Origin: Litomosoides sigmodontis
Taxonomy: Eukaryota; Nematoda; Chromadorea; Rhabditida; Onchocercidae
Length of the DNA stretch: 64,000 bases
Direction: 5' to 3'
Assembly: GCA_963070105.1 (NCBI GenBank)
Contig: OY718807.1
Coordinates: 3,755,001 to 3,819,000, forward strand
Positions within the stretch are counted from its first letter, which is position 1. Each line of letters begins with the position of its first letter. This document shows, one piece after another, positions 20,381 to 40,413 of this stretch. Under the pieces are notes generated by a model, which saw nothing but the letters and a program-made list of their open reading frames with translations, did no database searches and was not told the origin of the DNA. A program made the position numbers and the translations under genes.

Positions 20381-21430
20381 ACATTTGAAATTTTTCAATG
20401 TTTTTTTCCGAAATTTACATCAAATGTAGCAAACGATCATCACATTAGCTGCAATTTGACGGCGATAATTGCCACAGCAAAATAAAGTGACCATAGACAG
20501 TATCGATTCTGCGAACATCTAAGAATTTATCACGGAACAAAGGGAAAATAGCTGGTATAAGCTGTGATAACTGTACAGATATTTGACTATTTGATTTGAT
20601 CACATCGATTATTCATTCTTCCATTGATTTATCAATCAAATTTTAATTTTAAATGGTCAATTTGAATTTTCGTTTGTTTCAATAAATGCTGTTAAAAATG
20701 GGTCAATGTATAAATGCATGATACAAAACGATAGTGACAGTGCAGAAGTATTAGTCTGAATCAGAAGATCGTCAGATGCAAATGCAGGAACCAGTTTTTC
20801 GTCCCATCAACAGAATTCAGAATTCCTGTAATATGCTGAATGTTTTCTCCACCGCAGGAACTGTGGAAGCGAAAGATGTCATGATTCTTTCTACTGGATC
20901 ATTGAATCCACCGATGACGTTACAAAATTGAAAGTTTCAGAATTTTTCTATCAAGAAGATCAGATAATTTCATTAATTTCCTCACACGGTTATGAACAGC
21001 TATTTAAAGCTCTGCAGCAGTAACTCTGATTAATGAAGATTAAATTGTAAAAATTTAAATCTTTTGACTTTGCAATCGATTGTAATCGGTTTATCCTGCA
21101 TAAAATCGCGCTAAAGTTACTTCAAATTGCACGCTGCTAACAAACTTATTCATCATATCCTCTGACGTAGCGTTCGTAACCCTACGTGTAAAAGATAATT
21201 AATTATAAAAACGAGTAGAATTAAAGGAAATATTAAATTTTAACTTCAATGGAAAAAATATAAGAGATACATGTGCTTTCCTACTGATGTAAAACTCTTC
21301 CATGCGAAAGGAACAATTTATCAATAATAAGCGCTTTAAAAGGTGTCAAAAAGTCAGCGAATGAATTCACGCCCAATAGCTTAAACGAGGGAATTAATAA
21401 TAATAATAATAACTAATGATAACAATTAAT

Positions 21431-21910
21431 AATAATAATAAATAATAATAAATAATAATAAATAATAATAAATAATAATAAATAATAATAAATAATAATA
21501 AATAATAATAAATAATAATAAATAATAATAAATAATAATAAATAATAATAAATAATAATAAATAATAATAAATAATAATAAACAATAATAAATAATAATA
21601 AATAATAATAAATAATAATAAATAATAATAAATAATAATAAATAATAATAAATAATAATAAATAATAATAAATAATAATAAATAATAATAAATAATAATA
21701 AATAATAATAAATAATAATAAATAATAATAAATAATAATAAATAATAATAAATAATAATAAATAATAATAAATAATAATAAATAATAATAAATAATAATA
21801 AATAATAATAAATAATAATAAATAATAATAAATAATAATAAATAATAATAAATAATAATAAATAATAATAAATAATAATAAATAATAATAAATAATAATA
21901 AATAATAATA
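21431..21910. repeat. 10-bp tandem array, variant AATAATAATA
   Basis: Forty-eight nearly perfect copies of a 10-mer in strict register, with one substituted unit at 21581-21590 (C for T). Adenine and thymine only apart from that base. Confidence 0.98.
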
Positions 21911-22480
21911 ATTAATAATAATTAATAGTAATTAATAATAATTAATAATAATTAATAATAATTAATAATAATTAATAATAATTAATAATAATTAATAATA
22001 ATTAATAATAATTATTAATAATTAATAATAATTAATAATAATTAATAATAATTAATAATAATTAATAATAATTAATAATAATTAATAATAATTAATAATA
22101 ATTAATAATAATTAATAATAATTAATAATAATTAATAATAATTAATAATAATTAATAATAATTAATAATAATTAATAATAATTAATAATAATTAATAATA
22201 ATTAATAATAATTAATAATAATTAATAATAATTAATAATAATTAATAATAATTAATAATAATTAATAATAATTAATAATAATTAATAATAATTAATAATA
22301 ATTAATAATAATTAATAATAATTAATAATAATTAATAATAATTAATAATAATTAATAATAATTAATAATAATTAATAATAATTAATAATAATTAATAATA
22401 ATTAATAATAATTAATAATAATTAATAATAATTAATAATAATTAATAATAATTAATAATAATTAATAATAATTAATAATA
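21911..22480. repeat. 10-bp tandem array, variant ATTAATAATA
   Basis: Fifty-seven copies of a 10-mer that differs from the preceding block by one A-to-T change. Only two deviant units are visible (21921-21930 and 22011-22020). It continues the register of the left block exactly. Confidence 0.98.
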
Positions 22481-24314: not shown

Positions 24315-27025
24315 TCAAGCAGTGGCAACAAGTTGCACCTCGCGATCATACAGTTTCTGTACGGGACGGAAATTCTTGATTACGCTTCCTGATCTGTCGC
24401 GCAAAGCTCGAAAGAGTGAAAGCTGAAAGAGAGATGCAATTACAGCACCTCTGGAAATTCCATTAAACATTTCAAAAGTACTAAATCTTCCAAACAACTG
24501 CTTAAAGGATGTGGGTGAGATTAAAGCGCAATCAAAATTATTAGGGAAAAGCAATACTGCCTGCACATCATCATTTATAACTGATGAGCAATTTGCGATA
24601 AACAGCTATCGTCCTTAATTCAGAAATGAATCTTTAACCTTTCAGTTGAAATAAAGAGGAAAATATGCAATGTAACAAATATACAATTTAGGAAAGAAAT
24701 TAAAACAATACTATTTTTGGAGCTCACATTTTCAACAAACGAAAAAAGAACTTCATAACAGGGCGAAAAAGAATGAAAAAGTAAAATTTAAAAAAGAAAG
24801 AAAGTGGTAGTAAAAAGCACCTGAAATTTGGTGATAACAATAGGTTCAGTGAAAATAGTCCATGTAACAACCTCAGAGCACGGTGGTGTAGTCAATGATC
24901 CCGTATATCGCCAAAATGACTTCCTGTTTTTTGGCAACTTATCATTCAATACAATGTCCTGTATTGGCTGACTTTTTGCTGCAAAAGAAGGAAGTAAATT
25001 TTCTTTTAAGTTGGAAAAATTTTCAATGAATTCATCGACAGCTTTTTAATTACTTTTAGTAAAATACAATTTCACAAGACTCCAATGCAACCATTCATCC
25101 GTAGGGTTGCTATGTAATTAATTAACCCTTAAAGATCCATCCTACAATTTTTAAATGCTTTATAAGGTATTCCCTTCCGATAATAATTTATTACAAGGCT
25201 AAAATATAAGGAATTGCTGAGAAAGAAACAACATCAGTTCAAATAAAAAAGAAGCTGATTAATTTATGAACATGAATAATGCAATGGATATTAAATGTTT
25301 GGAATGAAATTTTGAATTTTGAAGCCTTAAATTTAAATATTTTATATTTCAGCCTTGCTGTTTAAAAAATTTTTCCTTTAGGGGTCTCTTGACTACGAAT
25401 GAAAATTTAAAAAAAGAAAAATTAAAATTTTCAGGAGAAAATTATTTGCAAATTTTTTGAGAAAGCCGAAATGCCTTTATACTTGTAAAGAAAGTGTGAA
25501 GAGGTGATGGTTAAAAAACGTTACAGAAATATTACTATTTGCTAGGAAATTGAAGTGTGACTTGTTCATTTCTAGAAGTCTCAAAAGTATAATGAAGATT
25601 GCTTTGCTCTAATCGATCCAATCGCAGTAAACACTTTGATGTTATCCGACAGCCGGAACATCCGAAATTATTTCGAAATTATTCATTCGATTACTTTTAA
25701 AAGGAATAGATTCTCTTCTTTGACAACCTGGATTGATTAATTCATTAAGAACGGTGCATTCTTGCAACAAAGCTGTGTCATCAAAACCAAGCACAAAGAA
25801 AACACCGATAACGGCTAATTTCTTAGGATTTGTAAGACCTTCGTGGACAAGATGTAGCTCAACCGGATAATGTAGACCGGCTAAAGTGTGCTCAGATCCT
25901 GAAGAAAACATTTAGTCCTACATACAGATAGATAGATATTTGTAAGTTTTTTGTCTGTTGAAAACAAATTTAATTAAATTTTCTCAGATGAAAACTTCAT
26001 CATCTGCTATAACTTTCCACATTTATGGAGGATAATTTAAAGTAAAATTATTAACGCTTACCTTCATTATCTTGCAATCCCCAGTGGAAATGGTACTGTA
26101 CCAAACGATAAGTTTGATCAAGACCACCACCTTGTATTTTTGGCCTATCATTTTCAAAGTGTGGCTTCACTTGTACTAAAAACAAGACAGTATTGATCTA
26201 GAAAGAAGTTTGGTTTTTTTCTTTCTGATTACGTTAAAAATGTGTAATGCGATATTTGAGAGAAATCTATGTAAGATAATTCAATTTTAGAAGTATTTTA
26301 AAGGTGTGCACCAAAATTATTTCATCTAAAAGCTCCTTCCTCCACTTCTAATATCCTTTTTACTTCACTTCACTCACTCAGCAATGAAACCGAATGAAAA
26401 ACTCAATTATAGACCGAACTGAACAGCAAAGCATTTATTTAGTGATCAAACATTAGGTGTACATAATTCCATGACAACGGTTTTAAACGTCAACCTAATG
26501 AATGATAACGAACTTGTACGTCAAGCAAAATTCTGTGTCAAATTGCCCTTTGCTAAGAGAAAAAAAATTACCGGAATGCCCATTATTGACAATTTCACCT
26601 TTCAATTTCATATCATAATTCAGGAACTGAAATGGTTCCATAGTACTATGTTTCATCGAACATAAATCCAAATTTATCGGTGACTGATTACGACCATTAG
26701 CATTTGGCCAATTTTTTGGGCCTGAAATAGCCGAAAAAATGGTAAAAAAATTTACAGAAAAAAATGAAACGGTACACCGAGGATTTCTGATCAGCAGAGG
26801 AGTGGTGAATTGAAATATACGAATAAATAAAAATGTATTAAAAGAAAATAAATGAAATTTGAAATGAATTCCTTTTTCCCCCTTTTTAACTGTTACTACC
26901 AAACAGTAACTATAAGCATTCGTTAACATATCCATAAAATTTCATAATCAAAAAAGAAAAGGGATTAACTTGCAAGAAAAAAAAAAACCCACCACATTCA
27001 CCATCTTCATTGTAGTCCCAGTTCG
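24315..27025 (-). CDS. Alpha carbonic anhydrase (5' end not found)
   Basis: Alpha-class carbonic anhydrase, the zinc enzyme that interconverts CO2 and bicarbonate. Six exons join with matching phases: 27025-26993, 26721-26572, 26175-26062, 25898-25695, 24978-24821, 24422-24315 (TGA). Motifs in order are [38 protein letters not shown] (first two zinc histidines), [16 protein letters not shown] (third zinc histidine), [22 protein letters not shown] (family signature with the gating Thr) and FRALRD...NFRPVQKL. All zinc ligands and the Thr/Glu network are present, so activity is expected. The first visible exon starts in phase 1 just before NWDY, where secreted nematode enzymes have their signal-peptide exon. 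That exon lies upstream and I could not place it. The protein ends soon after the fold (VQLVATA), with no GPI or membrane anchor. Confidence 0.95.
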
Positions 27026-36700: not shown

Positions 36701-37120
36701 TCAGTCGCAATTACTTTGGTGCATATTGAAGTTATAAAATCAAAATTATTGATTTCACATTCGTTCATCTCTTGCAGTCAGCTTTCCACTTCCTCCCATT
36801 TCCTTTTTTCCTTACCGATTATCTTTCAAGCCGAATAATAACACTTCAGCTACTCAATGAAAAGCAATAAACGCTCCGTGGAAAATGCAACCTATTCATT
36901 TATTTGTTTCAAAAAATTTAAGTTTTACAAAACTAATTTTTTTTATTCCAATAATTTTGCTTTTTACTCATTATTATCAGTGTTTTATTTAGGACACAAG
37001 CAGGCTAAATTTAACACTTTGATATGTTTAAGTTTTTTTTCACAAATGAGAACTTTTCTTTGCTTAATAATAACAATAATTAATAGTATAATAATAGTAT
37101 AATAATAGTAATAATAATTA

Positions 37121-38062
<942 letters not shown>

Positions 38063-39850: not shown

Positions 39851-39859
39851 AAATTTCAG
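39851..39859 (+). promoter_or_regulatory. Probable spliced-leader acceptor of the peptide gene
   Basis: The sequence aaatttcag, a consensus nematode 3' splice site, lies 7 nt before the first ATG with no upstream exon evident. This is the usual spacing for SL trans-splicing. It is inference from position and motif. Confidence 0.55.
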
Positions 39860-39866
39860 GCTTCAT

Positions 39867-40413
39867 ATGCTTTTAGCAATGAAAGTGACATATACGCTGT
39901 TTATCATATTTGGTGAGACATTTTTTTCCAATTGTTTTTCCGTTTCTTTAGTGCATTTCTTTAAAACATAATTTCTTTTTAACTAACTTGTAATTTTCCT
40001 TAACTTGTCATAAAATTTTTCTAAAAAAAGAAAAACGAAAATTCTTTTAGAGATATTTCCTTTTTTTGGATTTTTGATTTTAGGGACATTTTTTGATTAT
40101 CTGAGAAATTATTCAACCGTCACGTTAAATTTACCTAACAGCTGCACATGCAATCATAATCACAAACTAAAAACGCAAATTTCATTCATTTGCAGTTATT
40201 TTATGGACATCAGTGGTGCCACAAAATATTGACAAACTTAGCAAAATGGAAGTTTCTATGACGAAAACACCGAGATACAAACGATGGACAAGATTGGAGC
40301 CAAGCGTACGCTTCTATAGTAAACGATGGACTAGACTGGAGCCAAGCGTACGTTTCCTTGATAAACGATGGACAATATTGGAACCGAGCGTACGTTTCTT
40401 TTATAAACGATGA
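39867..40413 (+). CDS. Predicted neuropeptide-like precursor, three KR-flanked 12-residue repeats
   Basis: A two-exon gene of 87 residues: 39867-39912 and 40196-40413 (TGA). Exon 1 encodes MLLAMKVTYTLFIIF and ends at G|GTGAGA. Exon 2 follows TTCATTTGCAG and continues VILWTSVVPQ, so the joined start is a typical secretory signal peptide (about residues 1-25). A short spacer ends in TPRYKR. Three peptides then follow, each bounded by Lys-Arg: WTRLEPSVRFYS (46-57), WTRLEPSVRFLD (60-71) and WTILEPSVRFFY (74-85), and the protein stops right after the last KR. Dibasic KR is the normal prohormone convertase site. No Gly precedes it, so C-terminal amidation is not expected. Start could also be the second ATG (39879). 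Repeat differences are mostly synonymous in this frame. I know no described family with this core, but I could not search. Tissue and receptor are unknown. Confidence 0.8.
40279..40404 (+). repeat. 42-bp coding tandem repeat, three copies
   Basis: Units at 40279-40320, 40321-40362 and 40363-40404, followed by the first 8 bases of a fourth. The period is 14 codons (KR plus a 12-residue peptide), so the frame is kept. It lies within the peptide precursor. Confidence 0.97.

Follow-up and report, generated by a model that had tools for sequence, protein, structure and literature searches.

The locus at 39867 to 40413 in a 64,000-nucleotide stretch of the Litomosoides sigmodontis genome (the window) raises the question of what is made by a small, intron-split gene that ends in three tandem repeats. 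A preliminary description had proposed a precursor of unamidated peptides spaced by Lys-Arg (KR) pairs. The reading of the gene, its constraint, its relatives in other nematodes, and its likeness to known peptide families are considered here in turn.

Gene structure and repeat units

In the spliced reading of the window, the two exons (Table 1) give an 87-residue protein. Translation of both exons gives the order MLLAMKVTYTLFIIFVILWTSVVPQNIDKLSKMEVSMTKTPRYKR-WTRLEPSVRFYS-KR-WTRLEPSVRFLD-KR-WTILEPSVRFFY-KR-stop. The splice sites are a donor, G/GTGAGA, after 39912 and an acceptor, TTTGCAG/TT, before 40196. KR flanks both sides of all three units, and there is no Cys anywhere in the protein. The computed MH+ values of the predicted free peptides are 1540.791 (WTRLEPSVRFYS), 1518.806 (WTRLEPSVRFLD), and 1557.810 (WTILEPSVRFFY).

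Most of the gene model put forward in the preliminary description was found to be exact on re-reading, namely the exon and intron coordinates, the phase-1 intron, the three KR-bounded 12-residue units, and the stop after the last KR. The TTTCAG upstream of the ATG had been offered as a sign of trans-splicing. It is present and is consistent with trans-splicing. As evidence it is weak, because an ATG lies no more than 20 nt away at 14 of the 35 TTTCAG sites on the + strand. The expectation that the gene could easily be missed did not hold. The protein database contains the identical 87-residue protein, P0002, an unnamed product of Litomosoides sigmodontis (family Onchocercidae). The gene is thus already annotated, with no function given.

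Table 1. Features of the putative peptide precursor gene, in positions of the window.
Feature	Position	Strand	Basis
TTTCAG, possible SL trans-splice acceptor, 7 nt before ATG	39854-39859	+	Read in the sequence; weak
Exon 1: ATG (39867) and first part of the hydrophobic leader, MLLAMKVTYTLFIIF, plus base 1 of codon 16	39867-39912	+	Sequence; deposited P0002 is the same protein
Phase-1 intron, 283 nt, GTGAGA...TTTGCAG	39913-40195	+	Sequence; junction-spanning protein stretch conserved in filarial orthologs
Exon 2: leader end, spacer, three peptide units, stop	40196-40413	+	Spliced reading
Predicted signal peptide core TLFIIFVILWTSVV, residues 10-23, interrupted by the intron	39894-40218	+	Mean Kyte-Doolittle 2.59 over 14 residues
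Spacer peptide PQNIDKLSKMEVSMTKTPRY	40219-40278	+	Partly conserved among filariae
Lys-Arg site 1	40279-40284	+	Translation
Predicted peptide 1, WTRLEPSVRFYS	40285-40320	+	Translation; mass computed
Lys-Arg site 2	40321-40326	+	Translation
Predicted peptide 2, WTRLEPSVRFLD	40327-40362	+	Translation; mass computed
Lys-Arg site 3	40363-40368	+	Translation
Predicted peptide 3, WTILEPSVRFFY, Arg3 to Ile	40369-40404	+	Translation; mass computed
Lys-Arg site 4, then directly stop TGA (40411-40413)	40405-40413	+	Translation; KR end also in P0003, P0004, P0005, P0006, and P0010

Each unit spans 42 nt; the starts lie at 40279, 40321, and 40363, and any two units differ at seven sites. Their core, in three Lys-Arg-bounded copies, is WTxLEPSVRF. 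Within the 12 codons for KR and the core, five of the six variable sites are synonymous, against 24% of the possible changes (binomial 0.004). All four variable sites in the last two codons are replacements, and the peptides end in YS, LD, and FY. Since the changes in the core are mostly synonymous and those at the end are all replacements, in L. sigmodontis, at any rate, the core is under constraint and the final two residues are free of it. Every unit (40279-40404) also carries a donor-like site, AGC/GTACG(T/C). A fourth, decayed unit 3' of the stop was rejected, as its score of 8.0 lies below the shuffled mean of 9.6 (p 0.97).

A degenerate pattern for the 10 core codons matched three times in 65,877,608 bases (7 contigs), each time in this gene at 40279-40404. 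In the same bases there were no matches on the reverse strand and none to a backwards-pattern control. The repeat part of the gene has one match in the L. sigmodontis genome (65.9 Mb). Paralogs elsewhere in this genome were rejected on these grounds. A PDB sequence search with the repeat part alone gave nothing useful. Pfam and NCBIfam, given 1, 10, and 10 proteins, returned matches only below the curated cut-offs, and the Rfam and tRNA scans returned nothing relevant.

Other features are present in the window. A TAA trinucleotide array (37065-38061, about 332 copies, 98% matches) ends 1.8 kb upstream of the gene and keeps several frames open on both strands. There is also a AATTAATAAT array (21392-22480, about 109 copies, 98% matches). 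An open frame on the - strand (26498-26941) matches eukaryotic carbonic anhydrase (PF00194) over residues 74-126, with an E of 1.8e-9 that is above the curated cut-off.

Relatives in filariae and other nematodes

In a first protein search, 10 of 34 candidates had E <= 10, all of them from filariae or Thelazia. KR-spaced copies are found in Dirofilaria immitis, in Thelazia, and in four other filariae, Onchocerca flexuosa, Acanthocheilonema viteae, Loa loa, and Wuchereria bancrofti (a partial model). These four have two-unit arrays of WTRLEPSVRFFD, each unit after KR or KK, with a KR end. Thelazia callipaeda has three copies. Gongylonema shares its infraorder with the filariae and Thelazia and belongs to a different superfamily. 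Its only copy is followed by the tail AGINNPLLY, and the 50-residue model may be incomplete. Because Gongylonema is single-copy, the tandem array probably arose in the ancestor of Thelazia and the filariae.

Four of the models have deviant ends (P0007, P0008, P0009, and P0011). P0007 of B. pahangi and P0008 of D. immitis leave the repeat after LEPS of unit 2, where the window has the donor-like AGC/GTACGT. These ends may be model errors or real changes. P0009 of D. immitis and Bm1163 of B. malayi (P0011) continue past RF as LISDEA and LTNDEA, which could be FDKR-stop read one base off, as a model error or a real change. A literature match for Bm1163 was rejected, as Bm1_16300 is a different gene.

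A first profile was built from six of the 10 proteins, leaving out P0007, P0008, P0009, and P0011 for their odd ends. It matched 19 of 5660 candidates. Nine of these matches lie beyond filariae and Thelazia, all of them weak (E 0.09 to 8), and they carry KKWTRLEPS[IV]RF or RKWTPLEPSVRF. Six of the nine are named, from Gongylonema, Enterobius, Ascaris, Anisakis, Meloidogyne, and Mesorhabditis. A second profile from six chosen proteins, five of those nine and Thelazia, matched 71 of 6508 candidates at E <= 10. Organism names were obtained for 55 of the 71, every one of them the name of a nematode. Lineages were looked up for three organisms, and the others were placed by name. This nematode-only naming is not built in by the search. 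Those reached include Ascaris, Anisakis, Enterobius, Meloidogyne, Globodera, Steinernema, hookworms, Pristionchus, Caenorhabditis, and Panagrellus.

The E value is at or below 0.001 for 37 of the 71 matches (six are the profile rows themselves) and above it for 34. All five Caenorhabditis matches (E 0.07 to 4; four named species and one numbered) and all three Pristionchus matches (E 0.15 to 1) are above this value; they were counted as members for their core, their basic pair, and a small size with a hydrophobic N-terminus. Among the 16 matches beyond the 55, 15 have the core after KK. The other, P0069, has one RK-WLRMEPSIRF but looks unrelated in the rest of its sequence, and was judged a non-member. 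It is excluded from the 56-protein and 71-protein counts below and included in the 72-protein counts. No second-profile match is listed under the name C. elegans, and none is named from the Trichinella/Trichuris group or Strongyloides. Since names are shortened, clusters hold several sequences, and C. remanei is already at E 4, a relative in C. elegans may have been concealed or have fallen below the limit.

The 55 named matches and Bm1163 make up 56 named proteins from 50 species. Positions W1, E5, P6, S7, R9, and F10 of the core are invariant in all 56. Part of this invariance comes from the search itself, which asks for matching five-residue words and a high core score and so would not pick up members whose core has changed. 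S, T, or N stands at position 2 and I or V at position 8; 49 of the proteins have R at position 3, and 48 have L at position 4. Directly ahead of W1 stands KK in 42, KR in 12, and RK in two. A basic pair precedes the Trp in 81 of 81 core copies from 72 proteins, P0069 included. Mean identity is 85% in the core vs 19% in the part before it (210 pairs; 21 genera chosen from 35 seen). One copy is present in 49 of the named proteins, two in five, and three in two. Only filariae or Thelazia have more than one, and the others have one copy each of [KR][KR]-WxxxEPS[IV]RF.

A strongly hydrophobic 14-residue stretch is found in the first part of 57 of 71 proteins, that of L. sigmodontis included, by a hydropathy count that has no control set. 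The 14 below the cut-off include the partial W. bancrofti model and several truncated-looking proteins, but also full-looking ones, P0013 and P0015 among them. Two Ancylostoma members are named in a source after nematode fatty acid retinoid binding proteins; Pfam found no domain in P0035, the one of them that was scanned. Three members, P0030, P0041, and P0053, are named just secreted protein. The S. carpocapsae member is P0033.

The preliminary description had staked its reading on conservation of the KR-spaced core in related species, and the core is conserved in filariae, Thelazia, and wider nematodes. What that first reading did not see is that the core is shared far beyond filariae, usually in a single copy.

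C-terminal ends and comparison with known peptides

The region behind the core takes several forms in the 56 named proteins. One residue then KR or RK is found in 30, one residue then the protein end in eight, a Gly-bearing tail in seven, a further tandem unit in nine (P0007 and P0008, with a broken second unit, were assigned to this class by hand), and something different in two. The core is at the very C-terminus, with no cleavage site after it, in Meloidogyne, Globodera, Heterodera, and Steinernema. Ascarids, oxyurids, Gongylonema, and Pristionchus have a tail after the core with no adjoining basic pair. Gly-bearing tails (RFIGGSNPYF, RFAGGSNNAWFV) replace the basic pair or stop in P0015, P0016, P0012, P0014, P0059, P0062, and P0068. 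Judged by sequence, the Gly-bearing tail is a second form of the C-terminal end, seen in ascarids, Gongylonema, Enterobius, and Pristionchus. The computed MH+ values are 1552.791 for WTRLEPSVRFFD of the other filariae, 1437.764 for WSRLEPSIRFF of strongylids and Panagrolaimus, and 1480.781 for WSRREPSIRFF of Caenorhabditis.

In 48 core copies a basic pair follows within two residues, and none of the 48 has a Gly before that pair. RFG[KR] is found in 0 of 72 proteins, and no protein ends in RFG. These counts, and the KR around all three units, bear out the proposal of a KR-spaced precursor of unamidated peptides. The family resembles FLP precursors in having KR-spaced units that contain VRF. 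It differs in that RFG never precedes a basic residue in the 72 proteins, and the RF is internal, followed by one or two residues or a longer tail. Membership in the FLPs fails because no copy has the amidation Gly before the following basic pair.

Likeness to NLP precursors, which include unamidated ones, is seen in the short precursor, the hydrophobic leader, the dibasic sites, and the short conserved, sometimes repeated peptide. Basic pairs bound a short peptide here, and its motif is conserved between species. In allatostatin C, two Cys enclose a peptide ring. The allatostatin C motif with its Cys ring is given in PMC8764417; C-x(3-6)-C is found in three of the 72 proteins, never within the core, and an allatostatin C-like identity was rejected. 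The same source names nlp-85 to nlp-98 and prints the motifs of several new families. WxxxEPS[IV]RF fits none of the motifs printed in its section 3.6, and the present proteins have no amidation Gly ahead of a following basic pair. The RPamides (nlp-2/-22/-23/-46/-85/-86/-87) were rejected, as RPG is found in 0 of 72 proteins. One of them, nlp-85, is described there as a filarid-specific RPamide gene, A(A/V/T)MISGRGFRPG (PMC8764417). It too is a neuropeptide-like gene of filariae, whereas the present family has no RPG and is not filarid-specific. The nlp-97 motif, NPYSW, is given for nematode clades 8, 9, 10, and 12 (PMC8764417), which is a similarly wide spread, but NPYSW is found in 0 of 72 present proteins. 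NPY alone is found in three of the 72, two of them ascarid tails behind the core. The AP-x-TSA motif of that source does not fit the family.

Further genes, nlp-99 to nlp-118, were added from Steinernema carpocapsae, with the sequences in supplements (main text of PMC9881375). NLP-99, newly named and with a C. elegans homolog, was considered; it is called the somatostatin/allatostatin C ortholog in the later abstract of PMC13082328 and was taken on that description as not the EPSVRF family. The core forms (EPSVRF, EPSIRF, and variants) were looked for in the open full texts of 5.39 million papers, and none of the papers listed is on nematodes, judged by title. Since the nlp-99 to nlp-118 sequences sit in those supplements, the EPSVRF family may already bear an nlp number.

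Proposed function and its alternatives

Nematode neuropeptide precursors are secreted, cut after basic pairs, and trimmed. In the present precursor, the hydrophobic leader is predicted to direct the protein into the secretory pathway. By analogy with nematode neuropeptide processing, a KPC-2/EGL-3-type convertase would cut after the basic pairs and an EGL-21-type carboxypeptidase would trim them. Entries on EGL-3 and EGL-21 stand in the reference list of the FLP review PMC4058706. The freed peptides would then act through a receptor, which would most likely be G-protein-coupled. The basic pair before the Trp is kept in all copies and the C-terminal end varies between clades, so the receptor may read the free N-terminal Trp and the core, with no need of an amidated C-terminus. 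The last one or two residues would matter little, given this varying end, which agrees with the loose YS, LD, and FY ends of the three peptides.

The peptide-precursor reading is well supported in silico. It is probable that the 87-residue precursor, with its three Lys-Arg-bounded copies of WTxLEPSVRF, is secreted and cut as predicted to give three unamidated signalling peptides. The comparison shows the gene to be the tandem-copied filarial member of a nematode family. The many tandem arrays in the window (36 rows) might suggest a chance open frame across a 42-nt repeat. Orthologs in other filariae and Thelazia, the synonymous bias in the core, and the lack of any genome-wide control match led to the rejection of chance, whose probability is negligible. 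A small secreted protein that works whole or outside the nervous system, be it antimicrobial, cuticular, or host-released, is a more serious alternative, though an unlikely one. In it, the KR pairs would be incidental or would serve as maturation cuts only. The plant-parasitic forms and Steinernema, in which nothing after the core could be cut, might work in this way, and the names carried by P0030, P0041, P0053, and the two Ancylostoma members point in the same direction. Against it, the basic pair is always kept before the Trp, filariae repeat the core and KR as a unit, as expected of a peptide precursor, and the part before the core is barely conserved, which is a misfit for a functional whole protein. 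Free-living Caenorhabditis and Panagrellus also have members, so a host-directed role is not the general function of the family.

A diverged FLP precursor that lost its amidation glycine would explain the VRF in KR-spaced units, and P0016 of Anisakis reads RFGG, though with no basic residue behind. This origin is very improbable, as EPS[IV]RF is found in 50 species with no Gly before the following basic pair, RFG then K or R is never seen, and W1 and EPS are constrained as much as RF. Whether the gene is the filarial member of an already named nlp gene is a label question that is compatible with the peptide-precursor reading. The presence of the core in the five Caenorhabditis species and of P0033 in S. 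carpocapsae, the source of names up to nlp-118 (PMC9881375), makes such an identity a real possibility, if somewhat short of an even chance. It is opposed by the literature search for the core strings and by the misfit of the PMC8764417 motifs that were compared (RPG, the Cys ring, NPYSW, and AP-x-TSA).

The precursor of unamidated peptides therefore stays the preferred reading. The finding is larger than first reported, in that the sequences point to a likely signalling-peptide family throughout Rhabditida, with the filarial gene as its tandem-copied form. The most likely reading is that unamidated secreted peptides of this family are widespread among roundworms and that tandem copying took place in the filaria/Thelazia line. 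We more tentatively suggest an uncatalogued family of unamidated hormones, W[ST]RLEPS[IV]RF, across the order Rhabditida. Its receptor would read a precisely cut N-terminal Trp and leave the C-terminal end free (one aromatic before KR or stop, or a GGxNPxF-like tail), and its array would descend from one filaria/Thelazia ancestor.

If true, an unamidated peptide would here be recognised through its N-terminal part, in contrast to the RFamide logic of the FLPs. Between filariae, Caenorhabditis, and plant-parasitic nematodes the ten-residue core hardly changes, which suggests a conserved receptor. Such a receptor would be common to parasites of people, livestock, and crops. As several Caenorhabditis have a single-copy version, the function and receptor of these peptides could be tested in laboratory worms.
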